55,959 nucleotides of DNA from Bacillus sp. J37 (GTDB taxonomy: Bacteria > Bacillota > Bacilli > Bacillales > Bacillaceae), in contig NZ_JAEK01000031.1 of the NCBI RefSeq assembly GCF_000518865.1, forward strand, positions 1 through 55,959, in the 5' to 3' direction. Positions 1 to 15,480 of this stretch are shown piece by piece. Each line of letters starts with the position of its first letter. Position 1 is the first letter of the stretch. Below the pieces are notes generated by a model that ran no database searches, was not told the DNA's origin, and was given only the letters and a program-made list of their open reading frames with translations. Both the position numbers and the translations under genes were made by a program.

Positions 1-267
1 GTAATAAAATTTTTGCTTGGACTCTTCTGAAAGCAACAAGGCAATAATTTCATAATAGTCATCTATCTTTGATGTTCGTTTACGAATACTTTTCGGCTCG
101 TAGCCATTAAGGTATTTATCAATCGTCCTCCGATCAACTCCCATATCACGAGCCAATTTACTCTTATTAATTTTCATTTTCAAGCTCTCCATTAAGATTT
201 TTAATTTCGGTAAGTCTGAAAGACTTTTAACTTCAATATCTGTAGTTATATTTATTGGCATATGCAT
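1..267 (-). CDS. istA: IS21-family transposase IstA, N-terminal fragment (cut by window edge)
   Basis: The minus strand has an open frame of 89 codons that runs off the left edge. A typical IstA is about 400-500 residues, so only the N-terminal DNA-binding part is visible. Around residues 31-55 it shows a helix-turn-helix, with the stretch KSKLARDMGVDRRTIDKYL followed by NGYEP, which is characteristic of IstA. A GGGGTGA ribosome-binding site lies 5 bases before the first ATG (267); a second in-frame ATG at 261 is an alternative start. The catalytic DDE domain would lie outside the window, so activity cannot be judged. Confidence 0.75.
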   Translation of the reverse strand, partial: MHMPINITTDIEVKSLSDLPKLKILMESLKMKINKSKLARDMGVDRRTIDKYLNGYEPKSIRKRTSKIDDYYEIIALLLSEESKQKFYY

Positions 268-338
268 AATATTCACCCCAGAATATTATGCAGTTTAGTG
301 ATCCAAACTGTACATACTTAAACGATCATTTTTGTACA
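1..338 (-). mobile_element. IS21-family insertion sequence, partial (istA end)
   Basis: The window opens inside an insertion sequence whose transposase reads leftward. The putative outer terminus is the TGTACA at 333-338 (read on the minus strand). A second TGTACA copy lies 24 bases further in, at 309-314, fitting the repeated terminal sites of IS21-family elements. The transposase start lies about 70 bases inside this end. The other end and the istB helper gene are outside the window. The exact boundary is inferred from the terminal motif and from the abrupt start of the neighbouring coding frame; no target duplication can be checked. Confidence 0.6.
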
Positions 339-1165
339 TTTTTAATTTAGCATTTGTAGACTATAAGCTAATTCGTAGCGAATATTACAGAGATGGATTT
401 TTTGATGGTAATCACTTTAAGTTTGCAAGGATTGGGACCAAGGGAATAGACTTACTAATTGAACATAATATGCTCGAAAAATCTTATAATAAAAAAAAAA
501 TATATAAGTTTAATGACAAGAAGAATTTGATTCACTTTCTTGCCACACAGCAAGCAGCTCTAAATATTATATTCAACCTTAATAAAAGAACTATTGTACC
601 TTTTAAAGAAAAGAACAAATCATTTGATATACAATATGGTTTAAATCTTTTTTCTCAATCTCCTTCAACTATGCCATATGAAGAATGGATACCAGACTAC
701 AAAAATCTTCATACACAAAATAAAGGTGCTTATTATACAAAGATCGCAAAATATATGAGCAATAATGCAACTATACGTCCATCTGGTAAAACTATGACGA
801 TTGTAAAACCAGACTGGGTAGTCCGTTTAAAACCAGAACATAGGAAAGAAATATTCATAAACATCGAACTAGATACAGGATCAGAACCTATCCAAACATT
901 AGTAGAAAAAGCATTTAATTATTCTATATTAGCTAAAAATAATCCGTCAGAACTACATTATATGGGTATTATTGTTTTAGATAATACCTTTGCAAATAGT
1001 TCTAGAGTAACTAACGGAAAAAAAAGAACAATTAATCTTATAAATCGATTAAATGAAGACAATGACGTAATTAAAAGAATGAAGGAATCTAAATTAATTC
1101 CTTTTATCAGGCCATTAGGAATGATTGACAATGAGCTTATGAGACTATTATGTAAATATTCATAA
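339..1165 (+). pseudogene. Replication-relaxation-like protein, 5' end apparently lost to the IS
   Basis: An open frame of about 275 codons enters directly from the insertion-sequence terminus; its only in-frame start is a TTG (332) inside that terminus with no ribosome-binding site. The first 55 residues look like a winged helix missing its beginning (FARIGTKGIDLLIEHNMLEK, then a KKIYKF wing). The C-terminal half has a PDWVV strand and an IELDTGSEPIQTLVEKAFNY stretch, like the replication-relaxation family (PF13814-type) found on mobile elements. The family call rests on remembered motif shape, not a search. I infer 5' truncation by the IS; the truncated product may still be made from an IS-borne promoter, but nothing shows this. 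Confidence 0.5.
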
Positions 1166-1206
1166 TCATATTCAAGATCTAAACTCTAATCTATAAATTA
1201 GTGTAA

Positions 1207-1239
1207 AAGAGTGCGATAATATCCTTATTTCGCACTCTT
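1207..1239 (-). terminator. Terminator downstream of gajB (possibly bidirectional)
   Basis: AAGAGTGCG at 1207-1215 pairs perfectly with CGCACTCTT at 1231-1239. Read on the minus strand the hairpin is followed by TTTTAC, so it suits the gajB transcript that ends at 1322. On the plus strand it also lies 40 bases after the truncated gene, though the U-run there is weaker. Confidence 0.65.
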
Positions 1240-1321
1240 CAGATTTTCAGTATTAATAATTATCATTTCTCAACTAAATTATGCTTAATTCAAAAGTTCT
1301 TTATGTACCAAATATTTATGC

Positions 1322-2824
1322 TTATAATGTTTTTAATACCTGATCTATAGTATGTATGTTTTTATTCTTTAATCTTCCAAGAATATTTTTTTTATAAATA
1401 TTCGTATTATCTACGATAACAACTTTTTCTTTAGCCCTTGTTAACGCTACATAATGATTATTTAAACTACCTATACTATCTAATGGATAATCTGATGCTC
1501 TAATTATTACTTGATCGAATTCTAAGCCTTTAGTAGCAAACACAGTCATTATTTTATGCTTACTTTCAACATCTAAAAAGGAAATATTGTAACTATCATT
1601 CTCAAGAGTCTGTAAAAACTTCCTTATCTCATTATCACTAAAATTCACATTTATAATTTCAGCGATTTTGTTAAGAGTTACCTCTACATTTTGAAACTCT
1701 AATTTTTGAGTAAGTAATCCAACTTGTTTCTCTAAAGTTTTTATTTCCGAAGTATTTACTTCTAAATTTAAGTCTAATAAAAAATCATAGATAGAATAAT
1801 ACTTATTAACAATGAGTTTCATCAAACATCTCAAAACAAATGTATTTATTATGCCATCATCAATAGGAGTTCGAGGAATAAATTCAAATTGATATCCATT
1901 ACTATTTAGAAAGTCCCTGCACTCCTCTGCAGCGCTATTAACGTTAATTATTATTGTAATTTTTTTATCTAAATTTACTTCCTTTTTTTGTAGTATCTCA
2001 ATAACAGCACTAGAAAAGCCTTTATTGGTTGAAAATAGTGCTATCTCATTTATTATTTCACTAGCTTTACTTTCTAAATAATTTTCTTTATGAAGTAAAT
2101 TAGCAAAATTAGTTATATTAAAATGCGATCTGAAATTATGGTATAACTCATACTTAGTAAAACTATCATCAAATTCTTCAAAAATATTTTCTTTAGCACC
2201 TCTCCATAAATAAATAGCTTGCTTCGAGTCTCCCACAATAAATAAGGGTATTTTTAGTTCATCCTTAATATACATAAATAAAGAGTGCATATCTTGATCA
2301 CTATCTTGATACTCATCTAAGAAAAGCATTCTATATTTTGAAATAAGGAACTGTTGAGCTGCTACTGAATTTTTTAAAATAGATAAACCTAATTTAAATT
2401 TAAAATTCTTTTTATTGTCATAGTAACTACCGAGAATTTTATCCGCTTTTAGTAGTTTTATGCCTTCTTTGCTAAAATTAAATTTCTTATTAAAATCAAC
2501 TACAAAATCTTGACTGAACTCTTCGCCTAAAACGTCTAAAATAAAAGGACGGAGAATTTCATTTTCTACAAAACTATCATTTGTACATATGGTTAAATCT
2601 TTATTTAAATTTGCTTTATATGTTCTATCCTTTAATTCTTCTGTTGCTTTAATAGTAAAAGTGATTGCTGCAATCGTTTGATGATTTCTAATTACATTAC
2701 ATATTCTTATTAATTTATCTACTAGAATAGTAGTTTTTCCACATCCAGCACTTGCAGATACAACAATATTTTTTAAATCTTCATCTAATATTCGATCCCT
2801 TGTACCTTGATCACTTATCACCAT
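1322..2824 (-). CDS. gajB: Gabija anti-phage system UvrD/PcrA-like helicase GajB
   Basis: This 500-residue superfamily 1 helicase is the partner of the OLD nuclease encoded just upstream, together forming a Gabija defence system. Visible motifs in order: Walker A ASAGCGKTT (residues 24-32), Walker B LFLDEYQDSDQDM near 168, motif III GDSKQAIYLWRGA near 198, motif IV YHNFRS near 228, motif V TVFATKGLEFDQVII near 428, and motif VI YVALTRAKEKVVIV near 459. The length matches known GajB (about 494 residues), shorter than full UvrD because the accessory subdomains are small. The start overlaps the end of gajA by 14 bases with AAAGGAG ten bases ahead, so translation is probably coupled. In Gabija, GajB is thought to sense DNA ends or nucleotide depletion and act with GajA; that role is family knowledge. 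Confidence 0.9.
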   Translation of the reverse strand: MVISDQGTRDRILDEDLKNIVVSASAGCGKTTILVDKLIRICNVIRNHQTIAAITFTIKATEELKDRTYKANLNKDLTICTNDSFVENEILRPFILDVLGEEFSQDFVVDFNKKFNFSKEGIKLLKADKILGSYYDNKKNFKFKLGLSILKNSVAAQQFLISKYRMLFLDEYQDSDQDMHSLFMYIKDELKIPLFIVGDSKQAIYLWRGAKENIFEEFDDSFTKYELYHNFRSHFNITNFANLLHKENYLESKASEIINEIALFSTNKGFSSAVIEILQKKEVNLDKKITIIINVNSAAEECRDFLNSNGYQFEFIPRTPIDDGIINTFVLRCLMKLIVNKYYSIYDFLLDLNLEVNTSEIKTLEKQVGLLTQKLEFQNVEVTLNKIAEIINVNFSDNEIRKFLQTLENDSYNISFLDVESKHKIMTVFATKGLEFDQVIIRASDYPLDSIGSLNNHYVALTRAKEKVVIVDNTNIYKKNILGRLKNKNIHTIDQVLKTL

Positions 2825-4547
2825 TTTTAGTTAACTCCTTTAAAACTTCAAATCTAGAGCTATCAAAAATTGTCTGACAATCTACATATGTTAAAACTTT
2901 TGATAATTCAGCCATATTTATTAGTTTTGATGACTGTAAATATTTAATTGAATCTCTGCTTCCTGTTAGTTCATCTAATCTTGGACCTAATGCTTCATAA
3001 AGATCATGTTCTAAATCTATTTTTGATAGAAAAATATTGTTCTCTCTAATAATTCTTTTACTTTTACGATATTTATCATAAATCATAATCTTAGTATTGT
3101 TTATTTTTTCAGCTTTTACTGCTTCCGTATCATTTTCCTCTAATGCAATATTAATTGGTTTTTTCTTTTCTTCTTCACATAACTCTAATGCTCTATTAAA
3201 TCCAATTAAGTCAAATGAGTTGGGAGAACCCTTCTTCTTTTTTAAATCATTATCAGTTTTTACAAATACCTTAATACCTAATCCCTTCAATACTTCCCAA
3301 TATTTTTTGAAAGCAATACCATAAACCTCTAAAATATATGCACCTTCAAGTTCATACTCTGGTTTAATTTCACTTAAAACCTTTTCAAATAATACTCTTT
3401 CAGATGGGCCTTCTATCAATAAAACGCGTTCAGCAAAAATAGCCGTTGTTAAAAATTTATTTAATTGGGTTTTTATATTTATAAAATCTTCTCCTACATT
3501 ATATAAATAGGACGAACAGACAACTTTATCAGCAGAATGGACCCTTATTAAAGAAGCATTATCCATTTCATATAATAATTCTGACGAATGAGTAGTTAAG
3601 AAAAAATATTTATAAGATTCATGGGAGAATAATTTTTTGGAAAGTGCAATTTGCAATGATCTATGTAGGCTATTTTCAGGCTCTTCGATTAAAAATAAAG
3701 ATATTTTTTCAGAATTGAAATTTTTAGTAACATAATTCATTAAGGAGTAAGAGATTATTTTTTTTCTTCCATCTCCAGAAGTGGGATACAAATTATCATC
3801 GTTATTTTTCTTTATGTAGGGTCTTAAATCGCTAAAGTAACCGTTAATAGCCATTTCAGATTTTATAGTTAGTTCTATTTCTTCGTTTTTCAAGCTATAA
3901 TATTCCTTTGTTATTTCCTTTTCAAAATTATTTATTATATCCATTTCACCAATATGAGTGTTTATTTCTTTTGTAAGGATTTTTATTTTCTCCGATTTTT
4001 CGATATCCGTTTTCCCAAACTTCTCCTGAGCAAAAATTGCCTTTTTATTTTTTTGAAAAATAGTTTCAAGATTAATAAGCGGATCAATATATACTACCTT
4101 GAAAATTCTATCTAGCTCTGTGAATCCGTTTTTTTGGGGTATTTCTTTCAATTTTTTTAAGTTATTTCCCCAAGATAGTGTTATTCCACCTAATTCTTCT
4201 TCTTTTTCATACTTACCAAACAATTTTAAATAGACATTTTCCAAATCTGTAGAATCCCTAGCATCTTTTAGCCTTGAAACTATAAGTTTAGAGTGATCAC
4301 TTTCATCAAAATCTTTTATATTCATACAAATTGTAATAGATATTTCTTCATTAATATCTCTCATATAAAAGTCACTCTCATTAAGTCCATTTTTTCTAAT
4401 ATCTCTATCAAATAAGAACCTTAATGCTGCCAGAAAATTGCTTTTTCCAATATCGTTCATGCCAAATATAACATTCTGATTTGTTAAATCTACTTTGACT
4501 TCTTTAAAGTTTCTAAAATTTTTAATTTCTAACCAACTGAATTTCAT
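2811..4547 (-). CDS. gajA: Gabija anti-phage system OLD-family nuclease GajA
   Basis: GajA is the ATP-sensing DNA nuclease of Gabija, an N-terminal ABC-type ATPase fused to a C-terminal TOPRIM nuclease. From the chosen start the protein is 578 residues, the same as the well-studied B. cereus GajA as I remember it. Motifs: Walker A FGMNDIGKSN (about 28-37), Walker B SLFLIEEPENSLH, H-loop TTHSSELL, then TOPRIM LLIEGPSERVLFEKVL, a TDND pair and a downstream IDLEHDLYEAL acidic site. I chose the ATG at 4547 (MKFSWLEIKNF) over one seven codons upstream because GajA proteins begin this way and AGGTGAAGGT directly precedes it. All catalytic elements appear present, so the system looks intact. A sigma-A-type promoter lies about 65 bases upstream. 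Confidence 0.92.
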   Translation of the reverse strand: MKFSWLEIKNFRNFKEVKVDLTNQNVIFGMNDIGKSNFLAALRFLFDRDIRKNGLNESDFYMRDINEEISITICMNIKDFDESDHSKLIVSRLKDARDSTDLENVYLKLFGKYEKEEELGGITLSWGNNLKKLKEIPQKNGFTELDRIFKVVYIDPLINLETIFQKNKKAIFAQEKFGKTDIEKSEKIKILTKEINTHIGEMDIINNFEKEITKEYYSLKNEEIELTIKSEMAINGYFSDLRPYIKKNNDDNLYPTSGDGRKKIISYSLMNYVTKNFNSEKISLFLIEEPENSLHRSLQIALSKKLFSHESYKYFFLTTHSSELLYEMDNASLIRVHSADKVVCSSYLYNVGEDFINIKTQLNKFLTTAIFAERVLLIEGPSERVLFEKVLSEIKPEYELEGAYILEVYGIAFKKYWEVLKGLGIKVFVKTDNDLKKKKGSPNSFDLIGFNRALELCEEEKKKPINIALEENDTEAVKAEKINNTKIMIYDKYRKSKRIIRENNIFLSKIDLEHDLYEALGPRLDELTGSRDSIKYLQSSKLINMAELSKVLTYVDCQTIFDSSRFEVLKELTKNGDK

Positions 4548-4613
4548 ACCTTCACCTTCTAAATTCAAAAATGACCGAAAATATTACGGGCTATAATCTA
4601 TACATTTAATTCC

Positions 4614-4642
4614 ATTATGTTTCACTTTAAACTATTAATCAA
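4614..4642 (-). promoter_or_regulatory. Candidate sigma-A promoter of gajAB
   Basis: Read on the minus strand: TTGATT (-35, 4637-4642), a 17-base spacer and CATAAT (-10, 4614-4619). Transcription would begin near 4606, giving a leader of roughly 60 nucleotides before gajA. It is a good match to the vegetative consensus, which suggests constitutive expression. Confidence 0.6.
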
Positions 4643-4814
4643 CACACTTTCTACGAACTGATGTTATATAAAAAATAGTTCAACACTAACTTATTGCATA
4701 CCTGACGTACATAATCTAGTTTTGTGATAAAATTATTGTTAATTTCTAAATAAGAGTTGGAGAGTTAAATTTGATCCTAGTTTTGATATAACTTTATGAA
4801 TCCATAAAAAACTC

Positions 4815-4831
4815 GTTGTTAGGTTAACAAC
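4815..4831. repeat. Perfect 7-bp inverted repeat upstream of the small Cys-rich gene
   Basis: GTTGTTA and TAACAAC flank a 3-base loop, 45 bases ahead of the start at 4876. It lies in the 300-base divergent region between gajA and the small plus-strand gene. There is no U-run, so an operator is more likely than a terminator, but no regulator is identified. The rest of the gap (4569-4875) holds only the gajA promoter and AT-rich sequence. Confidence 0.35.
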
Positions 4832-4875
4832 AATAAATAAGAAATACATTTATTTTAAAGTCGGAGGTATATTAG

Positions 4876-5076
4876 ATGATTTGTACATGTGGTGGCATTC
4901 TCTCAGTTAAAAATATAGAAGAATATCCCAAACATCTGGCTAAACAAAAAAGGTTGTCTTACAATAGAGTTTGTGATGTTGAGTGTTTAAAATGCGGAAA
5001 AATATTTTTCTCTCAACCTTATGACTTTGGAAGTAATATAAATCAAGTTAGACCTATAAATCCCAAAATTAAATAG
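4876..5076 (+). CDS. Small Cys-rich (zinc-ribbon-like) protein of unknown function
   Basis: A 66-residue protein with a strong ribosome-binding site (CGGAGG, 9 bases before ATG) and a terminator close behind, so it is very likely expressed. Cysteines fall in two groups: C3 and C5 at the N-terminus (ICTCGG), then C33, C37 and C40 (CDVECLKCGK), the arrangement of a small zinc ribbon. I do not recognise the family. It is the only plus-strand gene between two leftward defence operons, and it has its own divergent regulatory region. Possible roles are a regulator, an accessory factor of Gabija or of the restriction system, or a mobile-element passenger; the sequence does not decide. Confidence 0.6.
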   Translation: MICTCGGILSVKNIEEYPKHLAKQKRLSYNRVCDVECLKCGKIFFSQPYDFGSNINQVRPINPKIK

Positions 5077-5121
5077 ATTTAGATCGAAGTAATTTATTTA
5101 ACGGTTAATTTTTTTATTCAA

Positions 5122-5166
5122 AAAAAGTTTCAAAGATAGTATATTATCTCCACCTTTGAAACTTTT
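5122..5166. terminator. Bidirectional terminator between the small Cys-rich gene and the McrC-like gene
   Basis: AAAAGTTTCAAAG (5123-5135) pairs with CTTTGAAACTTTT (5154-5166), a 13-bp stem with A- and T-rich flanks on each side. It sits between convergent genes ending at 5076 and 5179 and would stop both transcripts. Confidence 0.8.
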
Positions 5167-5178
5167 CTACTACTGCAG

Positions 5179-6987
5179 TTATGTTTCTCTATGAATTATT
5201 TGTGTTACATAATTTGTTAGTTCTCTCATGAAATTTTCCAATTCATTTATGGTATCGTTGCTATTCGGTATCAATGGAATCGCACCAATTCCGGGTAATA
5301 TAGTTGAACCTTGTTGGAAGTTGATAAATTCGTTCCCGGGATACAATACATAGGAGCCTAATGATTTATCTATAGCATCTTTATAGGCGTGCATTTTAAC
5401 TAGATCATCTTTTTTGCTTGTTTTAGTATCCGATTCAAGGTAATCCTTTAATTTTTCAATCCTGTACTTCGCATCAAAATGTATAAAATAACCGTTTTCT
5501 TTTTCTGTACTATCCGAAATATATAGAGTAAAATCCGGTTTTAATTTTATGGAGTAAGATTGACTTATGGTTGTTTGTCTACTAAATTCTTTATTATAGT
5601 AGAATAAAACCTTAATTTTATTCTTTTGATATACAAGACAACTATTAGTTCCTTTTTTCAAATTAAAATTTATACTCCCATTCTCCTCGTACCATACATT
5701 GCTTTCTTTATTCTCTGTTCCAAAAATGTTTCGTAAGGAATTTCTAATTATAAAAAAGCACCAAATTTCATAAAGTTCATATATAGGTTTAACATATACG
5801 TCACTAGTAACTGCGTCAATTGGATTCCAAGATAATGAAAGCCCACTCTGAAGTCTTAGATCCAATAATAATACATCTTGATATCCCGCTCTATTTTGTA
5901 ATACTTGTGAATTTGAAGGGAAATATTCGAGCTTATTTATCTGCCTAAAAATGTTATTGTTTAAGTAGTCTTCTAAAGTTGTAAGCCAACTACTTGCTTC
6001 ACTAATATAAAGCTTATAAAGTTTTTTTTTGCTATCTTTTTGAATAATCACATGTAACTGACGTATTATATTATTTACCAAATAGTGTATTTCCTCTAAG
6101 AAATTTTTAACGTATCTGTTTTCTGCTGTGTCTATTGTTTCATTACTCCGTTCAGATAATATTTTTTGAGGTGTATATCCCCTGAACTTCTTTTTAAGAA
6201 CTCCTCCTACTTGCAAATCCAACACATAAGGCTTGTTAATAATACTAGAATAGTCAGAAACCGGTCTAACCCCAATTGGCTCTAGTATAGATTCCGTGTC
6301 TAAATAAGAATGAATTTTATTTAGGACTGTATCAATAGCTAAAGGTAAATCTTTCATTATGCTTCTTAATTGTATTATTTTACTGAAGTTCATCGGATTC
6401 GAATTATCACTCAATACCTTCGTACCTGTTAACCCACTATATTGCATGACCAAATTGCTAGATTCTTCAGCTATATTATTCAATAATTCACTATATGCAG
6501 TTTCATAATTCATTTTCCTTGCTGCTATTTCACATAAAATAGAATGTTTATTATTTATTGATAAATCTAATGTCCCAATAAAATTTTTAGTATGGAGTTC
6601 CCCCATAATTTCAATAAAGTCTTCCTCTCCAACCCTTGTTTTCCTCCAATTGTTACTTGGAAACAGTTTAACAAACTGATTTACATAATTATTAGCAAAA
6701 GGACCAGAGAAATTACTTTCTTCAAAATACTTTTTTGGAAGTAATATCTTTAATAAATAGGTAGACTCTTCTCTTAATAATAATGAATGAAACATATTCA
6801 ATTGATGAATGTTGTAGCTTATTAGTGGAACTTCTCCTTCCATATTTTTTAACGATAAATAACCAAAAATATTTGGTATCGAATCCTCTAGCTGAATAAA
6901 AGAACCTTTTTCTCCGGTTAAGGTCTGAATTTCCAATTGTATGTTAGTATCTTCCCATTTGATAATAATATGATTTAAAGCCAACAT
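5179..6987 (-). CDS. DUF2357 / McrC-like PD-(D/E)XK nuclease subunit of restriction system
   Basis: This 602-residue protein is the presumed DNA-cleaving partner of the McrB-like motor encoded 10 bases upstream. The middle contains a DUF2357-type region (LCEIAARKMNYETAYSELL near 150-170). The C-terminus carries a PD-(D/E)XK core: KPDFTLYI near residue 488, then FHFDAKYRIEKL about 20 residues later (D...DAK), followed by MHAYKDAI, the helix typical of the fold. The start has AGGGG seven bases ahead of ATG. Such proteins replace McrC in LlaJI/BsuMI-type GTP-dependent restriction systems. It is the last gene of the operon and ends at a strong terminator. Nuclease function is inferred from motifs; sequence specificity would come from other subunits. 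Confidence 0.8.
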   Translation of the reverse strand: MLALNHIIIKWEDTNIQLEIQTLTGEKGSFIQLEDSIPNIFGYLSLKNMEGEVPLISYNIHQLNMFHSLLLREESTYLLKILLPKKYFEESNFSGPFANNYVNQFVKLFPSNNWRKTRVGEEDFIEIMGELHTKNFIGTLDLSINNKHSILCEIAARKMNYETAYSELLNNIAEESSNLVMQYSGLTGTKVLSDNSNPMNFSKIIQLRSIMKDLPLAIDTVLNKIHSYLDTESILEPIGVRPVSDYSSIINKPYVLDLQVGGVLKKKFRGYTPQKILSERSNETIDTAENRYVKNFLEEIHYLVNNIIRQLHVIIQKDSKKKLYKLYISEASSWLTTLEDYLNNNIFRQINKLEYFPSNSQVLQNRAGYQDVLLLDLRLQSGLSLSWNPIDAVTSDVYVKPIYELYEIWCFFIIRNSLRNIFGTENKESNVWYEENGSINFNLKKGTNSCLVYQKNKIKVLFYYNKEFSRQTTISQSYSIKLKPDFTLYISDSTEKENGYFIHFDAKYRIEKLKDYLESDTKTSKKDDLVKMHAYKDAIDKSLGSYVLYPGNEFINFQQGSTILPGIGAIPLIPNSNDTINELENFMRELTNYVTQIIHRET

Positions 6988-6997
6988 AATTAAACCC

Positions 6998-8482
6998 CTA
7001 ACTAATAAAGGAAGTATAACCTATATTATTTAATGAAGACCTCATTCTCTCTAGTTTTGCAATACTTCTAGGCAAATCAAGATTATTTTTAATTAGTAGT
7101 GTATCGGTATTAGTAGTATATTCTTCGGATGACTCTTTAACTGTTAAATTAGAACCTAAATCCTCAAAAGTCTCTTTATTTAGGAACTTTATTAAGAGTT
7201 CTAATACATCACTTAATTGTCTTCGATTACCATGTAATTTGGGTAAAACTTTTTGTAGAAGAACATTATCCATATATGAAATCCAATCACTATTAGATTG
7301 ATTAAATAATATAGCAAAGTTAAGATACTCTATTGTTTCTTTAAAGATTCTATATCCAAAATCAAAGTTCACCGTCTTTAATATACTATACATTCCAGAA
7401 AGGAGTATCTCCATTTCCCTTTTTGCCATATTAAAACTGTCTTGACTTCCCCATTTACTTTCTAGATTTGCTAGTGAATTGATACCTTGATATTCAAGTT
7501 CTCTATACTCTATTGAAGATTTGAAGTGATTAAGGAGTGTGTCTCCTTCAAATGGGATATTCTCTTCTCCCGATGTCTGATTAAAGTAATTCGAAGGATG
7601 TTCCGTTTCTAGTTCAATAATATGCGCACGGTCTAATACTTTTGGAGAAAACATATAGGTCGTTTCATCAACATTCACAGTACCAATAATAAATATATTA
7701 GGCGGAAGTGTAATATTTTTGTTATTTTCCATGAGCAGTTTTGCACTATTTAATATTTTCTCATCTACATTTTCAAGCATTTGAAGTGTCTCTATTATAA
7801 TAGGAAGATTTGTGCGATCTATTAAAGTAATGCCCTCGCTATCAGAAGTACTTCGTGCAGCTTCCATAGCCGATAAAAATGAACTAAAGTATCTTTCAAC
7901 GTGAGATAAATTCATTTCGTCTAAAATAATGAAATGTGGTAGATACTTATTTGCTGGATGTAAAGCCCGCAGGAGGAGTTCTATCATGGGAGTCATTACA
8001 TAAATTGTTTTCCCTTCGGGACCAAATGGATTAACATAACCAAGTAAACTCCTTGTATCAGTCCAATCTGCGCCTACTGGTATCAATGAATGTCTTTTTT
8101 CAACAGGTATTCTTACAGCTGCTCCTAAAGTTATCTTTGTGTATCCTTCTTCATCAATATAATCCCAGAATTCAGAGTTGCTGCAAATGATTTGATCATT
8201 CATTTCGATTTGAATCTCAAATTCTTTATCATTAACCTTACCGATAAACACATTTGAATCAATGCAAAGTTCTCTAATTTCCTCTTCTGTCTTACTTATT
8301 ATTCTCCCCTGTTTATTTATGTCTATTTGTACCCATGTGTTTACTTTGTAGCTCTTCTTTTCTAGCTTTTCTGCTACCCTAAGTGCTAATCGTGTTTTTC
8401 CTGTTCCTGAATTACCTGAAAGGACAACAAACGGTTTAGCTAATAATGATATTATATAATTCTCTACGATTTTCTTTTTCAT
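6998..8482 (-). CDS. McrB-like AAA+ (GTPase) restriction motor without N-terminal DNA-binding domain
   Basis: A 494-residue AAA+ protein of the McrB clade, expected to hydrolyse GTP (or ATP) and translocate DNA for the nuclease subunit. Walker A SGNSGTGKTRLA lies at residues 22-33, almost at the N-terminus; Walker B is HFIILDEMNLSHVERYFSSFLS, followed by the McrB-type signature IIGTVNVDETTYMFSPKVLDRA. McrB normally carries a DNA-recognition domain before the AAA+ module. Here only about 20 residues precede Walker A, so recognition is presumably supplied by the separate 232-residue protein encoded 16 bases upstream. GGGAGA lies about 10 bases before ATG. The gene is followed after 10 bases by the nuclease gene, forming one operon. 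Confidence 0.85.
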   Translation of the reverse strand: MKKKIVENYIISLLAKPFVVLSGNSGTGKTRLALRVAEKLEKKSYKVNTWVQIDINKQGRIISKTEEEIRELCIDSNVFIGKVNDKEFEIQIEMNDQIICSNSEFWDYIDEEGYTKITLGAAVRIPVEKRHSLIPVGADWTDTRSLLGYVNPFGPEGKTIYVMTPMIELLLRALHPANKYLPHFIILDEMNLSHVERYFSSFLSAMEAARSTSDSEGITLIDRTNLPIIIETLQMLENVDEKILNSAKLLMENNKNITLPPNIFIIGTVNVDETTYMFSPKVLDRAHIIELETEHPSNYFNQTSGEENIPFEGDTLLNHFKSSIEYRELEYQGINSLANLESKWGSQDSFNMAKREMEILLSGMYSILKTVNFDFGYRIFKETIEYLNFAILFNQSNSDWISYMDNVLLQKVLPKLHGNRRQLSDVLELLIKFLNKETFEDLGSNLTVKESSEEYTTNTDTLLIKNNLDLPRSIAKLERMRSSLNNIGYTSFIS

Positions 8483-8498
8483 TAATCATTGTTCTCCC

Positions 8499-9197
8499 TT
8501 ATCTATATACTGGTACTAAAGAGTTTGGTGTACTCAACATATCTACATATTCTTCATGTTGCATTCTCTCAAATTCTTCTGGTGATTTATTTATTTTAAA
8601 GCAATTTTCTATTAGCTGATCTAATAAATATCTTGAGGTTATTCTGTAGGTGTCTCTTTCGGTGGTTGGTTCTAAAACCTGAGCCTCAACCATTCTATGG
8701 AAAAAGACGTTCACAATTTGACGTTGGTTTGCTTGACTTTTTTGTGATAATCTAAATTCCGGTATATTTATTACATTATTTTTGGTAATTTGCCCTCCAT
8801 TTTGTTTTACGACTGATAAAACTTCAAAAAAAGGATGTATTAACTTTCCACCAATTAACTGGTTTAGATTCAATAAGTACAACAATAAATACTCACTTCC
8901 TAAAATCTTACTCTCTAAAAAGGACTTTGCTAAACGAGATAATTCATAACTTTCACCTATTTTGGAGCGGAAAATACCTAACTCTCTCCCTAATGTGTAT
9001 GCACTTAACCATTGTTTCTTAGTTCCAACATATTTTTGACGACCACCCTCGATATACCTGTCTAACATCTCACCAAAACCAATTAACATTTCTTCTTGAG
9101 TTTTAAATTGATTTGCTGTTTGAGTATATACCCTAAGTAATGCTCTAAAGTCTTTTTTCCTCCAAATATCAAAATACAAGCTCTCGTTATTTTTCAC
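8499..9197 (-). CDS. Putative DNA-binding/specificity subunit of the McrBC-type restriction system
   Basis: A 232-residue protein I do not recognise by family. It is rich in helices with two stretches that look like winged-helix folds: about residues 60-115 (KKQWLSAYTLGRELGIF through SRLAKSFLES) and about 130-205 (VLSVVKQNGGQIT through YRITSRYLLDQL). No catalytic nuclease motif is evident. It starts at a GTG with AAGGGGG about 9 bases upstream and leads the three-gene restriction operon, ahead of an McrB-like motor that lacks its own DNA-binding domain. I therefore infer that it recognises target DNA or its methylation state for the motor. A role as a regulator of restriction expression is the main alternative. 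Confidence 0.55.
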   Translation of the reverse strand: MKNNESLYFDIWRKKDFRALLRVYTQTANQFKTQEEMLIGFGEMLDRYIEGGRQKYVGTKKQWLSAYTLGRELGIFRSKIGESYELSRLAKSFLESKILGSEYLLLYLLNLNQLIGGKLIHPFFEVLSVVKQNGGQITKNNVINIPEFRLSQKSQANQRQIVNVFFHRMVEAQVLEPTTERDTYRITSRYLLDQLIENCFKINKSPEEFERMQHEEYVDMLSTPNSLVPVYR

Positions 9198-9251
9198 CCA
9201 TTAATCCCCCTTTAATCTTTCTATATGTTAATTAAATATTAACAAAATAAG

Positions 9252-9280
9252 TAAAAAAAGACGACCTCTTTAGGTCGTCT
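9252..9280 (-). terminator. Terminator between the methyltransferase and restriction operons
   Basis: Read on the minus strand, AGACGACCT pairs with AGGTCGTCT around a 4-base loop and is followed by TTTTTTTAC. It closes the methyltransferase transcript and separates it from the restriction genes that start at 9197, so the two parts of the system may be expressed at different levels. No clear promoter fits in the 55 bases between the terminator and the restriction operon, so limited read-through is also possible. Confidence 0.85.
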
Positions 9281-9283
9281 AAT

Positions 9284-10558
9284 TTATAATGAAGCATTCA
9301 GGGAATTGCCTATCATATCGTTTTCTTCAATCTCTTGTGAAAGTACTTCAAAAACAGCATGGGCTAACTTTTCAGCAAATTTTGGAGGTACCGCATTCCC
9401 TATCATTTTATAATTATCTCCTGAGCTACTTATAAACTCATAATCATCATCGAATGTTTGTAACCTAGCTGCTTCTCTTACAGTTATTGTTCTTGCCTGT
9501 GTCGAATCTGGGTGAATATGCCTTAAACCATCCTTATATAAATGAGCTGGTATTGTATTACTTTGTTCATTTCGGCGTAAGACATAATATTTATGGACAT
9601 TAGATACCTTACCTGTTCGTTCTGTGTAAAGTCTTTTTAATGCTTCAGTTGTTACATACTGAAAATTACCTTCTTCTATGTCTTTTGTCAATTCTTGAAA
9701 AATCTTAACATCTCTTCTGTTATGATAACGCGGCTCATGATTCAAAACTTTGATATTACTTAAATAATGAGAGTACTTTTTTCCATTCACCTTAAAGTCC
9801 TTCTCTGCGGGATAAAGTTTAGGTAAATTTCCTATTGCATCTGAAACTGTAACTTTACTTTCTTTGTAACTAGGTAGAATTCTATGATAAAAGTCGAGTA
9901 ATATTTTTTCAGGATTTTTATAGTAATCTCTATTAAGTGCCAATATAATTACTCGATTTCTCTTCTGAGGAATTCCATACTCTGTTAAATCAAGTAATGC
10001 GTGTTCTTTTAAGTCTTCTAAAATCACATAACCTGCATCCTCAATTTCTTTCTTTATCAATTCCGTAACAGGGGTACCCCCCGGAGACGCACTTAACATC
10101 CCCTGAACATTTTCAAAAACAAATGCCTTTGGTCTATATTTTTTAACTACTTTCATATAACTTTCAAATAAGTAGTTACGATAATCATTCTTCATCCCGT
10201 CTTTATCTCTTATTCTTCCTGCTATAGAATATGCTTGACAAGGTGGACCACCTATTATTAAATCAACTGAACTTTCACCAACTATTTCATCCAATCCCTT
10301 ATTTTCCCCATACTTCAAATCGTTTTTCCAACCACGAAATAATTCTTCTGTTCTTTGTATATCGAAAATTAGTACGCGTTCTTTAGCATCTTTGTAGCCC
10401 CATCTAGACTCTAATCTATTAATTAAATTTTTTGCAGGAGCAGTTTCCCACTCTACCGCTCCCAGTAAATTGAAAGAACCACCTTTTTTGAAACCATCAG
10501 ATAATCCCCCACATCCTGCGAATATATCTATTACGTTAAATTTTTTCATTCTACTCAC
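9284..10558 (-). CDS. DNA (cytosine-5)-methyltransferase, second of pair
   Basis: A 424-residue C5-cytosine methyltransferase with conserved motifs in order: I DIFAGCGGLSDGF (about 11-23), IV GGPPCQAYS with catalytic Cys (about 103-111), VI FENVQGM, VIII YGIPQKRNRVIILA, IX TVREAARLQTFDDDY and X MIGNAVPPKFA. The target-recognition region between VIII and IX is long (about 130 residues) and unlike that of its neighbour, so the two enzymes probably read different strands or sites. The start overlaps the preceding gene by 4 bases (GTGA); an ATG at 10549 is an alternative. Paired cytosine methylases next to McrBC-type genes recall LlaJI and BsuMI. Its job is presumably to protect host DNA from the adjacent restriction genes. 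Confidence 0.9.
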   Translation of the reverse strand: MSRMKKFNVIDIFAGCGGLSDGFKKGGSFNLLGAVEWETAPAKNLINRLESRWGYKDAKERVLIFDIQRTEELFRGWKNDLKYGENKGLDEIVGESSVDLIIGGPPCQAYSIAGRIRDKDGMKNDYRNYLFESYMKVVKKYRPKAFVFENVQGMLSASPGGTPVTELIKKEIEDAGYVILEDLKEHALLDLTEYGIPQKRNRVIILALNRDYYKNPEKILLDFYHRILPSYKESKVTVSDAIGNLPKLYPAEKDFKVNGKKYSHYLSNIKVLNHEPRYHNRRDVKIFQELTKDIEEGNFQYVTTEALKRLYTERTGKVSNVHKYYVLRRNEQSNTIPAHLYKDGLRHIHPDSTQARTITVREAARLQTFDDDYEFISSSGDNYKMIGNAVPPKFAEKLAHAVFEVLSQEIEENDMIGNSLNASL

Positions 10559-11631
10559 ACTTCTTGCTCAACTTTTAAGTAAGTTTTAATCTTATTTGCT
10601 AAATGAAAACCTAAAAGTGGGGGAACAGCATTTCCAATTTGTCTATATTGTTGTGTTTTGTTGCCATAAACTACAAAATCATCTGTAAAAGTTTGTAATC
10701 TGGCATTTTCACGTACAGTGGGTACTCGGTTATACTCATAATGAAAATGATTTCTATGACCTGTATCTATTGTCTTAGAAGGTTTAGACCTATGATATCT
10801 AGTCCATGCCTCATTAAATTTTCTACTATCTCCAACTCCCGGTGGAAGATCCTTATGATTTCCCCCCTCTGGTACTTGTGCTATTACCTCTTTAACAAGA
10901 TCTGTATGACGAGTTCCAACATGGTTATATAAAACAGTTGTTTTTTCTCTCATTCTTCTCTGATAATCAGTTTTAGGATCATTTAGGTAAACATCAATTT
11001 CCTGTCCAAGATCATCTTCCCTATCATGTAAATCACTAATTGCATCTCCACAGGTCACATACTCATTTGGGAAATGTGTAGGCTCCGGAAAGGCAAATTT
11101 AGTACTTCCTTTTAGGCCAACAAAGAAAATTCTTTTTCTGATTTGAGGTACTCCGTAATCTGGAGCAAATAAAACTTCAAAATTAACTGTATATCCTAAG
11201 TTTGAAAAACTTTGTATTATCTCATCTTTTGCCTTCCCTTTATACAGGGTAGCTAAACCCGGTACATTTTCCAATACAAAAGCTTGAGGCTCAAAAACTT
11301 TTGCTGCTTCTACCATTGACCTAAATAAAGTATTCCTCTTATCATCTGCATCCCTAGTTCCTGTTAGAGAAAAACCCTGACATGGTGGGCCTCCAACAAT
11401 AAGATCTACTTTTTTATTTCCAATAATTCTTTTCATCTCATTTATTGTTTCTGGATCAAATAAATCTGCCTTTAAAACCTCTGCTTGGCCATGATTTTCT
11501 TTAAAAGTTTTTAATGCGATTTCTTCATTATCTACACCTAGTAATACTTCATAACCTGCATCCATAAATCCTCTTGATAATCCACCACACCCGGAAAACA
11601 TATCTATTAAAGTCGGTTTAATACCAGACAT
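10555..11631 (-). CDS. DNA (cytosine-5)-methyltransferase, first of pair
   Basis: A 358-residue C5-cytosine methyltransferase. Motif I is DMFSGCGGLSRGF (about 9-21), motif IV GGPPCQGFS with the catalytic Cys near residue 83, motif VI LENVPGL, motif VIII YGVPQIRKRIFFVG, motif IX TVRENARLQTFTDDF and motif X QIGNAVPPLLG. All are intact. It heads a two-gene operon with the second methylase and lies behind a possible promoter at 11675. It diverges from the small coupled gene and recombinases to its right. Two methylases of different target-recognition sequence in one restriction system commonly mean an asymmetric recognition site with one strand modified by each; that is inference here. Confidence 0.9.
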   Translation of the reverse strand: MSGIKPTLIDMFSGCGGLSRGFMDAGYEVLLGVDNEEIALKTFKENHGQAEVLKADLFDPETINEMKRIIGNKKVDLIVGGPPCQGFSLTGTRDADDKRNTLFRSMVEAAKVFEPQAFVLENVPGLATLYKGKAKDEIIQSFSNLGYTVNFEVLFAPDYGVPQIRKRIFFVGLKGSTKFAFPEPTHFPNEYVTCGDAISDLHDREDDLGQEIDVYLNDPKTDYQRRMREKTTVLYNHVGTRHTDLVKEVIAQVPEGGNHKDLPPGVGDSRKFNEAWTRYHRSKPSKTIDTGHRNHFHYEYNRVPTVRENARLQTFTDDFVVYGNKTQQYRQIGNAVPPLLGFHLANKIKTYLKVEQEV

Positions 11632-11674
11632 TTCTCTTCACCCCTCAAGTATCTTCAGAAAACTTATTGTATCT

Positions 11675-11695
11675 ATTATAACAGAACGTACATTC
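11675..11695 (-). promoter_or_regulatory. -10 element and overlapping near-palindrome upstream of the methylase operon
   Basis: A perfect TATAAT (minus strand, 11675-11680) lies about 45 bases ahead of the methylase start; its -35 is poor (TTCTAT at 17 bases). Directly upstream, in the spacer, is GAACGTACATTC (11684-11695), a near-perfect palindrome one base off a Gram-positive LexA-type box (GAAC-N4-GTTC). It could be an operator for LexA or for a regulator of the system. A weak -35 is compatible with a regulated promoter. The rest of the 11632-11963 gap is AT-rich with nothing else recognised. Confidence 0.4.
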
Positions 11696-11963
11696 CTATA
11701 GAAATAATCAGTACCTTTATTATAAGTAATCAACCTTATTACATAAAGAGTATTTTATTGTAAATAAAATTATTAAATAGCCTTAAACATAGATAATGAG
11801 AAAAATCAATAGAATGTTGAATCAACAAAAGGAGAATTAATACATAAATTTATTAAAAAATCTTTTGTTAAACTCTTAAAATATTAAAATTCTCAAAGTA
11901 CTATGTCTTACAACCAAATGTAGCCGGCAACTTTTTGGATTAAGTACTTAGAGGATGATTAAT

Positions 11964-12143
11964 ATGAAAAATGAAAAATTCACTGACTATAACACTCATT
12001 ACGCTTCAATATTAGCTATCGAGAAAGATCATGGGAAGATTAATGCTTCTGACTTTTTAAGTTATATTTCCGAACTAATCGTCAAACATTCAGAAACCAT
12101 TGAAATGAAAGTTATAAGTGGGAGAGTGATTATTAATGAGTAG
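11964..12143 (+). CDS. Small protein translationally coupled to first serine recombinase
   Basis: A 59-residue acidic-to-neutral protein starting MKNEKFTDY. I use the ATG at 11964 rather than one three codons upstream because GAGG lies 9 bases ahead of it. Its last bases overlap the recombinase start by 8, so the two are probably translated together. There are no cysteines, signal peptide or membrane segment; the middle is predicted helical (DFLSYISELIVKHSETIEMKV). I do not recognise it. Its position suggests a recombination directionality factor or another recombinase accessory, but this is inference from context only. Confidence 0.5.
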   Translation: MKNEKFTDYNTHYASILAIEKDHGKINASDFLSYISELIVKHSETIEMKVISGRVIINE

Positions 12144-13638
12144 AAATAAGATTAGCAAAAAAAGAAGAAGAGCTTATGGCTATGTAAGAAAAAGTCCTAA
12201 CAAATACATTGATAACACATCAATTGAAAAACAAATTGAAGAAATAGAGAAATACTGTGAATTAAATGATATTGAGTTAGTTGAAATATATACTGATGAC
12301 CTAAAATCAGCAAAATCATTTGAAGGTAGAGATGGATTTAAGGAAATGTACAATAATGTACTTAGATCAAAAGATGATGTAGACTACATTATTGTTTTTA
12401 AACAAGACAGAATTTCTCGTGATACCCTAGATACTTTGTATATAATGAAACGACTAAACTCATTGAACAAACACCTTATATCTATCGCAGACAATGTTAA
12501 TACAGAAGACCCTTCTGCAAAAATTCTTGTACATGTGTTAGCTTTAGTCGCAGAACTCGAACGGGAATTTATCAATATGAGGACATCTTCTGGTATGGAG
12601 AAAAAAGCAAATGAAGGTCACTTTTTAGGTGGAATAGTCTTTGGTTATAAGACACAGAATAAAGAACTAATTATTGTTCCTGAAGAAGCCAAGATCGTAA
12701 AATATATCTTTGAAAAGTATGCAGTTGAACAGTGGGGTTATAAAAAAATAGCTTCTAATCTAAATCTTCAAGGTGTTAGAACTAAAAATAATAAATATTG
12801 GTCAATTAATGCAGTTAAAACAGTCCTAGAAAACCAGTTATATATTGGGAATACAAAATGGAAAGGGAAATATCAGAAAGGTATTCATACACCGATAATT
12901 GACTTACCCCTTTGGGGAAAAGCTCAGGAGGTAATGAAAACAAGAAGCTATATACAAGAAAAAATCCATCCGGGATCTTTCCCTTTATCTGGACTATTGA
13001 AATGCCCAGAATGTGGTTCTTCAATGGTACAAGGCAATAGCAGTGTAAAGTATAAGTATTATCAATGTAGTAAAAATAAGAATAGTGGTAAAGTAGCCTG
13101 TTCATCCAATCTTGTAAAAAAAGAATATGCAGAAGAGGTCGTTTTAAATGAACTCATTAGCTTTTTACAAGGCTTCAACCTTTCACCTTATATTGAATCT
13201 GCAACTAAATCATTATTATCTTTTGAACTTGAACCGGTATATAAAGAGGTAGAAAGAATAGAAAATCAAATAGAACTTAGCAAAAAAAGGATGAATACAG
13301 TTATTGATTTAATGGATGATCCAACAGCCTCTTTAGACAAAGAATTATTAAAAAATAAACTTTTGTCTCATCAAGAAGAATTAAATAAAAATAATATAGT
13401 CTTAGAAGAACTTACAAAACAAATAAATTTTAAAGAAAGTCATACTTCCAGTGATATTATTACTTTTTGTGTAAAAAGATTTAGTGATTTTTATGAGATA
13501 CTTCCTAACGAAGAAAGAAAATTACTGTTAAATCATATCATTAAGGAAGTTCATGTTCTTAAAGGTGATAGCACCAAGGATCGTAAAATAAAAGACATAA
13601 TTTATAACTTCAACCAAAATGACTTGTCATTGGATTAG
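12136..13638 (+). CDS. Large serine recombinase 1 (SCC/phage-type)
   Basis: A 500-residue large serine recombinase that would catalyse site-specific insertion or excision of the island. The resolvase domain (about 12-155) has YVRKS with the nucleophile Ser20, then FKQDRISRD and a LVAELEREFI helix. A recombinase domain follows (about 165-270, including WGYKKIASNLNLQGV and ENQLYIGNTKWKGKY). The zinc ribbon is near 289-325 (CPECG, then CSKNKNSGKVAC), followed by a coiled coil (about 355-420). The catalytic loop reads RKS rather than the usual RVS. GGGAGAG lies about 8 bases before ATG. It ends at a perfect hairpin terminator, so the second recombinase downstream is probably transcribed separately. 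The adjacent pair recalls ccrA/ccrB of staphylococcal cassettes. Confidence 0.9.
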   Translation: MSRNKISKKRRRAYGYVRKSPNKYIDNTSIEKQIEEIEKYCELNDIELVEIYTDDLKSAKSFEGRDGFKEMYNNVLRSKDDVDYIIVFKQDRISRDTLDTLYIMKRLNSLNKHLISIADNVNTEDPSAKILVHVLALVAELEREFINMRTSSGMEKKANEGHFLGGIVFGYKTQNKELIIVPEEAKIVKYIFEKYAVEQWGYKKIASNLNLQGVRTKNNKYWSINAVKTVLENQLYIGNTKWKGKYQKGIHTPIIDLPLWGKAQEVMKTRSYIQEKIHPGSFPLSGLLKCPECGSSMVQGNSSVKYKYYQCSKNKNSGKVACSSNLVKKEYAEEVVLNELISFLQGFNLSPYIESATKSLLSFELEPVYKEVERIENQIELSKKRMNTVIDLMDDPTASLDKELLKNKLLSHQEELNKNNIVLEELTKQINFKESHTSSDIITFCVKRFSDFYEILPNEERKLLLNHIIKEVHVLKGDSTKDRKIKDIIYNFNQNDLSLD

Positions 13639-13674
13639 GAGAAAGGCAAACTGTCCTTTCTCCTTTTTTATTTT
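13638..13674 (+). terminator. Terminator between the two recombinase genes
   Basis: GGAGAAAGG (13638-13646) pairs perfectly with CCTTTCTCC (13655-13663) and is followed by TTTTTTATTTT. The stem begins at the last base of the recombinase 1 stop codon. Confidence 0.9.
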
Positions 13675-13707
13675 CCATTGTATGATTAATTCAAAGGAGG
13701 TAATTAG

Positions 13708-15480
13708 ATGGAGATAAAGAAAGTTGCTATTTACGCACGTGTAAGTACTGAAGAACAAGCTTCAGAAGGTTACAGTATATCAGCTCAACTCCAAACCCTT
13801 CGTCAATACGCAAATCTTTATGGTTGGGAGATCTCAAATGAATATGTGGATGAAGGAATAAGTGGTAAATCTATTAAGGGACGCCCTGCAATGCAAAGAC
13901 TTGTAGCTGATATAGATAAGGGAAAATTCCAAGCAGTATTAGTTTGGAAGATATCACGCCTTTCCCGAAATATGTTAGACACCCTAGTTTTACTAGATCA
14001 ATTTGAAGAAAACGATGTGAAGTTTATTTCTTACTCAGAGAACTTTGACACTGGTAGTCCCATAGGCCGTTTAGTCGTTCAACTTATGGCTTCTATCGCC
14101 GAAATGGAACGTAATACCCTATCCGAAAACGTAAAGCTTGGAATGACACAAAGAGCAAAAGAAGGTTCGTGGAATGGAGGTCTTGTATTTGGCTATGATT
14201 CAGTAGAGAAAGAACTATTGATAAACCAGAAAGAAGCAGCAATTGTAACTTTAATCTTCAAAAAGTATTCAGAAGGTAAAGGCTTAAAGGCAATAGCTAA
14301 TTCGCTTAACAAAGCTGGCTACAAGACAAAGCACGATAGATACTTTTCAATCAACGGTATAGCAACAATTTTAGACAATCCAGTTTATATAGGTAAAATT
14401 AGATGGTTACAAGTAGAAAATTGGGATAAACGGCGTAGAAAAGGAAAAAACCCCACCCCAATAATTGTAGACGGAAAACACGAACCCATTATTGCGAATG
14501 AGCTTTGGAGTGTTGTCCAAGCACGTAGACAAAGTAAATCCTTTAAGCAACGTCAATCAAACGAACCTTTTCTGTTAAGCAGTATTCTTCGTTGTCCTGA
14601 TTGTGGCCAAGGTATGGTACCATCGATAACTACTTCAACTCGAAAGGATGGGTCAAAACATAAACACCGTTACTATGTCTGTAGTAATTTCCACAATAAA
14701 GGCTCTTCTGCCTGTAAGGCTAATTCAATTAGAGCTTATGAAGCAGAAGAATCTGTAATTAACCGTTTAGAGGATTTCTTATCTGATTCCAAACTCTACA
14801 TCAATACAATAGAGTCTCTGAATAAACAAACAGTTCAATCGACTATACAGAACCAACACGAATTAGAGAAATTTGAACAGCAGCTAATAAAAGTTAATAC
14901 CATGCAAGAAAAGTACATGGAAGCATTTGAACAGAATCTTTTCCCAATTGCAATTTTACAAGAACGCCTACAAAAGCTTTCCATAGAAAAAAAGGGTTTA
15001 GAACAAAAGAAAAATGAACTTAGCGTACAACTAAGTTCATCAGACTCAAAGGTAATTCCACCAGATGTTATTCGTCATCTATTAGAAAAGTATTTAGGAA
15101 TTTTCAAAGAGTCTTCACGAGAGAAAAAGAAGCAACTCTTTCAACTCTTACTAAATAACATAACGATTAAGCATTCTGATGGTCGCTCTAGAATTGTCGA
15201 TAAAATTGAACTCGATTTTGACTTTTCCGAGGTCAATCTGTCCAAGACCTTTACACTTATCCACATACTATACCTTGGTTCAGATAATACAGAGAAAAAC
15301 TCGACTTCAAATCCTGACCTAAAAGACAAAACACCACCTTATTTACAACTTTTTTTGCCTCTATTTATGGTACGGTTCCCCCCGATTAATCCGAAACGCT
15401 CGATAAACTTGCTCCAGCAATATCAACCTCATCAACTGATGAGGAAACGTCATCTTCGAGAAGGAAAGACTATCATTTGA
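13708..15480 (+). CDS. Large serine recombinase 2, C-terminus runs into antisense rlmH
   Basis: A 590-residue large serine recombinase with a textbook start: AAAGGAGG nine bases before ATG and YARVSTEEQ with nucleophile Ser13. The resolvase domain covers about 5-150 ([19 protein letters not shown]), the recombinase domain about 155-265, the zinc ribbon about 290-345 (CPDCGQGMV, then [12 protein letters not shown]) and a coiled coil about 375-435. The conserved fold ends around residue 520 ([10 protein letters not shown]). From about residue 552 onward the codons are the reverse complement of the rlmH 3' end, so the last 40 residues are an accident of integration. In the excised circle the protein would end differently. 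It is the gene nearest the junction and the best candidate for the integrase of this island. Confidence 0.9.
15361..15378. other. Putative attachment site of the island in the last codons of rlmH
   Basis: The 18 bases encode EPYHK plus stop of RlmH, the same position as the SCC insertion site in staphylococcal rlmH (orfX), where the encoded end is EAYHK. Accessory sequence begins immediately to the left. A second copy of this motif is not present elsewhere in the window, so the partner junction must lie further left. The exact crossover bases cannot be set from one junction. Confidence 0.6.

Follow-up and report, generated by a model that had tools for sequence, protein, structure and literature searches.

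A probable SCC-like cassette-chromosome element at the 3′ end of rlmH in Bacillus sp. J37, with a recombinase frame that crosses the predicted attachment site

The window analyzed here comprises 55,959 nucleotides of Bacillus sp. J37 and begins with the first base of contig C20; the host genome (G000) amounts to 5.34 Mb in 96 contigs, and the strain is probably a Metabacillus. The left 15.4 kb of the window form an island that abuts the 3′ end of the host gene rlmH (15361..15840, minus strand; 159 amino acids; 272 bits with the NCBIfam RlmH model). On sequence grounds, and with a probability of roughly 85%, we read this island as a cassette-chromosome element that resembles the staphylococcal cassette chromosome (SCC), integrates at rlmH, has its ends at window position 15378 and at position 8775 of contig C88 (C88:8775), and possesses in the large serine recombinase rec2 (13708..15480, plus strand) its likeliest integrase. 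Integration, presumably catalyzed by rec2, would be a large-serine recombination whose crossover falls on the GA of GAACC among the last codons of rlmH; it would replace the final codons of the gene while RlmH stays intact. The near end would thus be window position 15378, the far end C88:8775, and the middle of the putatively mobile island would have been lost at assembly breaks.

Much of what the initial annotation had proposed for this region holds. The rlmH gene is intact, and two large serine recombinases, rec2 and rec1 (12136..13638, plus strand), stand against its 3′ end. The accessory region is indeed the more AT-rich one, with a GC content of 30.4% (positions 1–15360) versus 35.9% (15361–55959); the lowest value among 51 right-hand windows of 15.36 kb each, 34.9%, still exceeds that of the island. 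The defence cargo that had been suspected could be identified as Gabija plus a restriction system. To the right of rlmH we find an HtrA-like gene, equivalogs of WalK and WalR (YycF), and DnaB, an arrangement that follows the B. subtilis gene order.

The evidence for a delimited element starts at the attachment site (att). Its core GAACCGTACCATAAATAG (15361..15378, minus strand; exact) joins the rlmH end to the near end of the island, which is of the type that we designate B and carries the arm TTTTTTTGCCTCT (15350..15362, plus strand) of a terminal inverted repeat; its mirror image TTTTTTTGCCTCTTAAATAACCACGGT stands just before C88:8775. The rlmH-end 18-mer has four exact copies in this genome, one at rlmH on C20, two on C64 and one at C88:8775, and the latter provides the second rlmH-end copy that an SCC-like insertion had been expected to leave at its other side. 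The C20 near end pairs with the C88 far end at 13 of 22 symmetric positions. No second att copy was found inside the window at up to 3 mismatches (17-mer), nor a further one in its island part at up to 2 mismatches (18-mer); as a genome-wide search at 3 mismatches remained at control level (13 vs 10), only matches with 0–1 mismatch were used at that scale. C88 beyond position 8848 is homologous, in pieces, to DNA on the downstream side of rlmH in no fewer than nine relatives (G052, G055, G056, G064, G058, G060, G053, G048, and G065), and we therefore regard C88 as the far flank of the island. Taking C88 beyond att for plain host chromosome is doubtful, because stretches of it are att-bounded in other species. 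As in SCC, the element lies at the 3′ end of rlmH with RlmH kept intact and has att and inverted repeats at both ends, here on two contigs.

Relatives carry the same arrangement on one piece of DNA. Complete elements, with rec2 at rlmH, rec1 inside and both ends present, occur in G028 (20.5 kb), G215 (25.9 kb), G146 (27.6 kb), and G054 (46.7 kb). Type-B far ends close the rec2-bearing elements of G057, G012, G028, and G054 and appear twice at the rec2 locus of Robertmurraya. When 199 genomes were drawn evenly from across the order, 11 of them, belonging to 10 genera, contained the far-end pattern (13 matches including C88; control 0); in the genome studied here it occurs once (control 0). Comparison with unoccupied relatives, as suggested in the initial annotation, was partly possible: rec1 and rec2 are missing beside rlmH in both G056 and G062, the latter with a different recombinase at a distance of about 20 kb, and a truly empty isogenic rlmH site was not found among the relatives compared. 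In G197 (L212/L213; oriented positions 29473 and 39812), the same sequence follows both the rlmH end and a type-B far end; the 34 bases shown, core among them, are identical, as if a near end had been lost or replaced.

The predicted crossover dinucleotide is the GA at 15377..15378 (rlmH direction), to which both dyad symmetry and a base exchange point. When 14 chosen end pairs were joined as in a circle, the step from G to A in GAACC was the best dyad centre of 12; these 12 pairs span three end types, and the two exceptions represent a fourth. Joined ends of matched types share on average 13.0–15.0 of 22 symmetric positions, mismatched types 5.6–8.3. Of the 42 exact rlmH ends in genus g2, 37 have the sequence GAGCC. 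G028 and G012, which have type-B near ends, show GAACC at rlmH and GAGCC at the far end, an exchange that is expected if the crossover precedes that base.

Several observations weigh against the reading of the island as an rlmH-integrating element with these ends. G030 has a type-B near end yet keeps GAGCC at rlmH. The near and far ends of the island reside on different contigs and are linked by end type and synteny; moreover, the search pattern that yielded the 13 far-end matches already contains the stop codon. Among the ten other far-end genomes, the stretches retrieved contain a complete element in G215 and G146 only; the near ends at rlmH of G106 and G245 are of another kind, rec2 of G128 is worn, and in the remaining five the near end lies outside the stretch or is not of type B. 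The tail of rec2 is short and possibly neutral, and excision itself is something that we infer.

The rec2 reading frame runs for 557 codons to the crossover and then takes 33 residues from the antisense strand of rlmH; it overlaps this gene by 120 bp, and on its way it passes LPLF-MVRF, encoded by the element end and the core. Because the rec2 gene reads through attP, the excised circle would end rec2 at TVVI-stop, and integration would swap in rlmH-antisense residues. For G000, G057, and G012, the circle is predicted to encode MVRF-TVVI-stop; for G028, G215, G146, and G054, it would give a [MV][VI]RF-TVVI-stop tail, and the integrated tails of these four differ. We surveyed the tails of the best 120 of 1017 matching proteins, the window's own included. 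A tail was scored as rlmH-antisense-like when, compared over no more than 14 residues, it was 40% or more identical to any of 40 peptides taken from genomes of the family. In these best 120, 102 tails were rlmH-antisense-like, 14 were of another kind, two had fewer than 5 residues, and two proteins were without the att-coded motif.

The same layout recurs at sister loci, 16 named ones of which were examined out of 46 found. A type-B near end stands at the 3′ end of rec2 in 14 of the 16, with rlmH directly after it in 10 of these; sequence other than rlmH follows rec2 in Fictibacillus, Alkalihalobacillus bogoriensis, Neobacillus vireti, where a type-A far end stands in this position, and Robertmurraya. 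The other two loci (L172 and L174) hold rec2 fragments only. In Alkalihalobacterium, rec2 is 93% identical while rlmH is 77% identical. At locus L160 of Fictibacillus phosphorivorans, rec1 and rec2 are 96% and 93% identical to the pair in the window and att is not beside rlmH, which suggests a recent transfer.

A functional role of the rec2 tail would go beyond integration as such, and the run of the frame into rlmH might equally well be meaningless, with neutral last residues; this is compatible with an rlmH-integrating element in all respects other than the role of the tail. Tail lengths vary widely, and the copies of G057, G012, and Robertmurraya look broken, which favours neutrality. What speaks against neutrality is that the att-coded motif is retained in 118 of the best 120 proteins, that 116 extend at least 5 residues further, and that the recombinases of G064, G076, and G070, which are only about 40–45% identical to rec2, likewise read into att.

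The second recombinase is a less constant neighbour of the junction. Relatives of rec1 share elements with rec2 but lie far from it in G215 and G146; the adjacency emphasized in the initial annotation is thus true of the window and not a fixed trait. An open reading frame (ORF) of 59 amino acids (11964..12143, plus strand) overlaps the start of rec1 by 8 nt. Eleven relatives of it were present in the loci retrieved, each lying upstream of a relative of rec1 at a distance of no more than about 300 bp, and we consider its product a candidate accessory or directionality factor.

The cargo bears on an alternative in which a former prophage or transposon left the recombinases behind, and the defence genes belong to a separate, non-mobile island that came to lie beside rlmH by chance. 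In favour of it, the contig ends at an insertion sequence (IS): positions 1..358, at the break of both contig and window, are the terminal part of an element that is IS21-like to judge by its reading frame, and as the contig stops inside this element, the island is cut at the window start. Attempts to link C20 to its left neighbour through IS21-like copies failed, since there are several copies and a unique partner was not found; the start of C88, judged by eye, also reads like the start of an IS21 transposase. A Replic_Relax-family gene (332..1165, plus strand) has had its 5′ part cut off by the IS end. It is followed by GajB (1322..2824; PADLOC E 1e-159) and GajA (2811..4568; E 8e-223), both on the minus strand, the latter (ATPase and TOPRIM) adjoining the former (UvrD) as in Gabija. 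A five-gene restriction unit, also on the minus strand, comprises a nuclease subunit with DUF2357 and PDDEXK_7 (5179..6987), an AAA restriction subunit (6998..8482; weak AAA match, PDC-M26A E 2e-44) that is McrB-like by layout, a 232-residue ORF without a family match (8499..9197), and the C5-cytosine methyltransferases M2 (9284..10558) and M1 (10555..11631). LlaJI and BsuMI combine two C5-methyltransferases with McrB-like and nuclease subunits. By its domain content and layout, the unit on the island is LlaJI/BsuMI-like; it shares with them the two methyltransferases, the McrB-like and nuclease subunits, and a restriction part of three ORFs, the number that one paper gives for BsuMI and LlaI (PMC1459862). 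Before att, C88 contributes a 973-residue ResIII/DEAD helicase, a Uma2-like protein, a helix-turn-helix (HTH) protein, and a recombinase-family gene.

A search of the 20 kb downstream of rlmH in 40 relatives turned up nothing close to the island cargo, only weak matches (25–28%) in G059 and G054, and this, too, favours a chance neighbourhood. Debris of this kind is nevertheless improbable: att at up to 2 mismatches was not found between the recombinases and the contig start, a matched far end exists on C88, complete elements stand in four relatives, and restriction and other defence families recur in sister cargo. Among 102 ORFs of at least 120 amino acids from 14 sister loci, for which the 25 commonest families were listed, the matches listed include type I restriction (3), type I methyltransferase (3), and specificity models (3), ThsB (2), SIR2-like (2), GmrSD (2), and DarT1-associated NADAR (1), and DUF3987 in one of the 102 proteins.

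The initial annotation had likened the two recombinases to ccrA/ccrB, a likeness that does not extend to family membership. CcrB is the best NCBIfam model for rec2, which fails all cut-offs with 402 bits (CcrB, cut-off 900), 331 bits (CcrC, 900), and 141 bits (CcrA, 700); rec1 fails them as well, with 202 (CcrB, 900), 148 (CcrC), and 113 bits (CcrA). CcrA and CcrB of S. epidermidis, used as a reference check, pass. Identity to CcrB is 39%. Recombinase trees were built from 42 rows and from 37, the smaller set dropping four phage or C16 rows and rec1 of G054. The rec1 and rec2 families form separate strong clades (bootstrap 100; Shimodaira–Hasegawa-like approximate likelihood ratio test 98–100) with CcrA and CcrB outside both, although an approximately unbiased (AU) test rejects neither a grouping of rec2 with CcrB (p 0.094) nor one of rec1 with CcrA (p 0.136). 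In the 37-row tree, CcrB, and not CcrA, groups with all rlmH-side recombinases (90/99), on long branches. Equating rec1 with CcrA and rec2 with CcrB hence lacks support from cut-offs and clades, even though the AU test leaves room for it. Despite the shared target, the tandem layout, the CcrB model as best match of rec2, the placement of CcrB, and the tolerant AU test, a true staphylococcal SCC transferred into Metabacillus with CcrA/CcrB orthologues is hardly credible, given scores below half of each Ccr cut-off that the S. epidermidis proteins pass, strongly supported clades without Ccr proteins, and the 39% identity to CcrB.

The rlmH site appears to be used by more than rec2-bearing elements. 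A census of the exact 18-mer in 80 genomes of the family returned 142 copies (reversed-pattern control: 1 match): 78 are at rlmH; another 46, spread over 30 genomes, lie downstream of it on the same strand at a distance of at most 60 kb; 8 are farther away on the same contig, and 10 on other contigs; none was upstream or inverted within 60 kb of rlmH. At up to 2 mismatches, 43 downstream sequences contain 101 copies that point with rlmH and one that points against it; 41 of the 101 are rlmH ends, and 4 lie on C64 and C88, where direction is not given by rlmH. G052 has eight copies within 17.6 kb. Matching inverted ends (at least 11 of 22 positions) were present in 27 of 49 neighbouring att pairs taken at up to 1 mismatch, versus 4 of 144 displaced controls; as they are absent in the other 22, not every att interval is a unit. 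Among intervals below 9 kb, 22 of 38 have matching ends, and 18 of these (0.2–5.2 kb) are without a rec1 or rec2 homologue. Units with matched ends carry an HTH regulator, a histidine-kinase ATPase domain, GGDEF, an HhH-GPD glycosylase, DUF418, and a radical SAM gene; FecCD iron transport, a sulfotransferase, and a DEAD helicase are found in intervals without them.

In the host genome, contig C64 (L082; 616–4671) holds a recombinase-free GerA/spore-permease operon between two att copies, with type-A ends that agree at 15 of 22 symmetric positions. The smallest unit measures 212 bp (L092 of G065, oriented positions 2639–2851), has near-matching type-A ends (17/22) and no ORF of at least 70 amino acids, and might be likened to a miniature inverted-repeat transposable element of the cassette system.

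Interspecies homology blocks keep one orientation in 364 of 371 cases, and 23 of 485 bins have a block end close to att, against a mean of 5.0 and a highest value of 14 in 500 random draws. Sharing of whole cassettes, defined by att at each end of the block in one genome or more, concerns 6 of 182 blocks (random mean 0.7, maximum 6; 300 shifts) and is suggestive only; the end-point test is the stronger one. One cassette, G052 7363–9769, corresponds to G048 2339–4822 and has att at both ends in both species. Many small recombinase-free cassettes appear to use the same rlmH site in related species, and the patterns are consistent with cassette shuffling. A partial second rlmH (residues 76–159, 77% identical to the query) stands at a downstream att of G006 (C2:867280–867531), 10.4 kb from rlmH. 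Exact att pairs far from rlmH, near 0.20 and 4.366 Mb of G050:C1 and near 4.77 Mb of G067:C1, are possibly cassettes at secondary sites.

We tentatively entertain, without regarding it as likely, a wider picture in which the stretch downstream of rlmH in Bacillaceae would be a serine-recombinase analogue of a chromosomal integron. Cassettes would be mobilized in trans, several recombinase lineages with their own terminal repeats would share one attB, and a recombinase-free stock of regulators, signalling, spore germination, DNA repair, and other functions would be held there. Since integration rewrites its C-terminus with rlmH antisense codons, rec2 would sense its own state.

A recombinase with a C-terminus altered by integration offers a simple, testable model of state-dependent control. 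SCC is the carrier of methicillin resistance, and for the question of where cassette chromosomes come from, a widespread reservoir of such elements and small cassettes in environmental Bacillaceae lends itself to studies of cassette capture, of the pairing of cassettes with recombinases, and of their stacking.

The initial annotation had envisaged an SCC analogue outside the staphylococci; the SCC-like character and the rlmH target stand, whereas the kind counts as known because such islands have been published. According to a 2018 report, the enterococcal cassette chromosome (ECC) targets the 3′ end of rlmH, has no conserved genes other than those of two serine recombinases, given there as ccrAB orthologues (ccrAB-Ent), has an att of about 50 bp with dyad symmetry, and was shown to circularize and transfer (PMC6222049). 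Target, recombinase pair, and att dyad are shared with the island from Bacillus sp. J37; a recombinase reading through att is not mentioned in the available parts of that report. SCC-like islands downstream of rlmH were described in 2023 from Bacillus cereus, Listeria, Niallia, Planococcus, and others; according to the available text, they were selected by their Pol-SSB-helicase genes, have one or two large serine recombinases and restriction cargo, are in some cases composites, and had their second end located by the last ~12 bp of rlmH (PMC10061031). Large serine recombinases, the rlmH site, a second rlmH-end copy, and restriction cargo are found here as well. An att-spanning recombinase frame and recombinase-free cassettes are not mentioned in that text, and the Pol-SSB-helicase module was not found in the parts of the element scanned (ten window ORFs and five C88 ORFs before att; the middle is missing). 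Pfam scans of the same ORFs found no DUF927 helicase, UGI-like, DUF960, or DUF1643 protein, the conserved neighbours of ccrAB in SCC.

Searches of open-licence papers, in which absence is weak evidence, returned none on cassette chromosomes together with Bacillaceae and ccrB, none under BsuMI gene names, and no report of an integrase read through attP. What we consider new is the GA-centred predicted attP, the rec2 frame that crosses it, and the recombinase-free intervals with matched ends downstream of rlmH. Like SCC, the system is inserted at the 3′ end of rlmH, encodes large serine recombinases, is bounded by terminal inverted repeats, forms composite arrays, and carries varied cargo; it differs in recombinases that stand at the rlmH edge and fail the CcrA/B/C cut-offs, in the rec2 frame that spans att, and in a predicted symmetry centre on GA, upstream of the TATCATAA motif that is stressed for SCC and ECC. 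Integron cassette arrays line up small units in tandem, with one recombination site common to all and always pointing the same way. The cassettes downstream of rlmH resemble them in these traits and differ in having several types of recombinase, which are serine and not tyrosine enzymes (no IntI), and an att with dyad symmetry.

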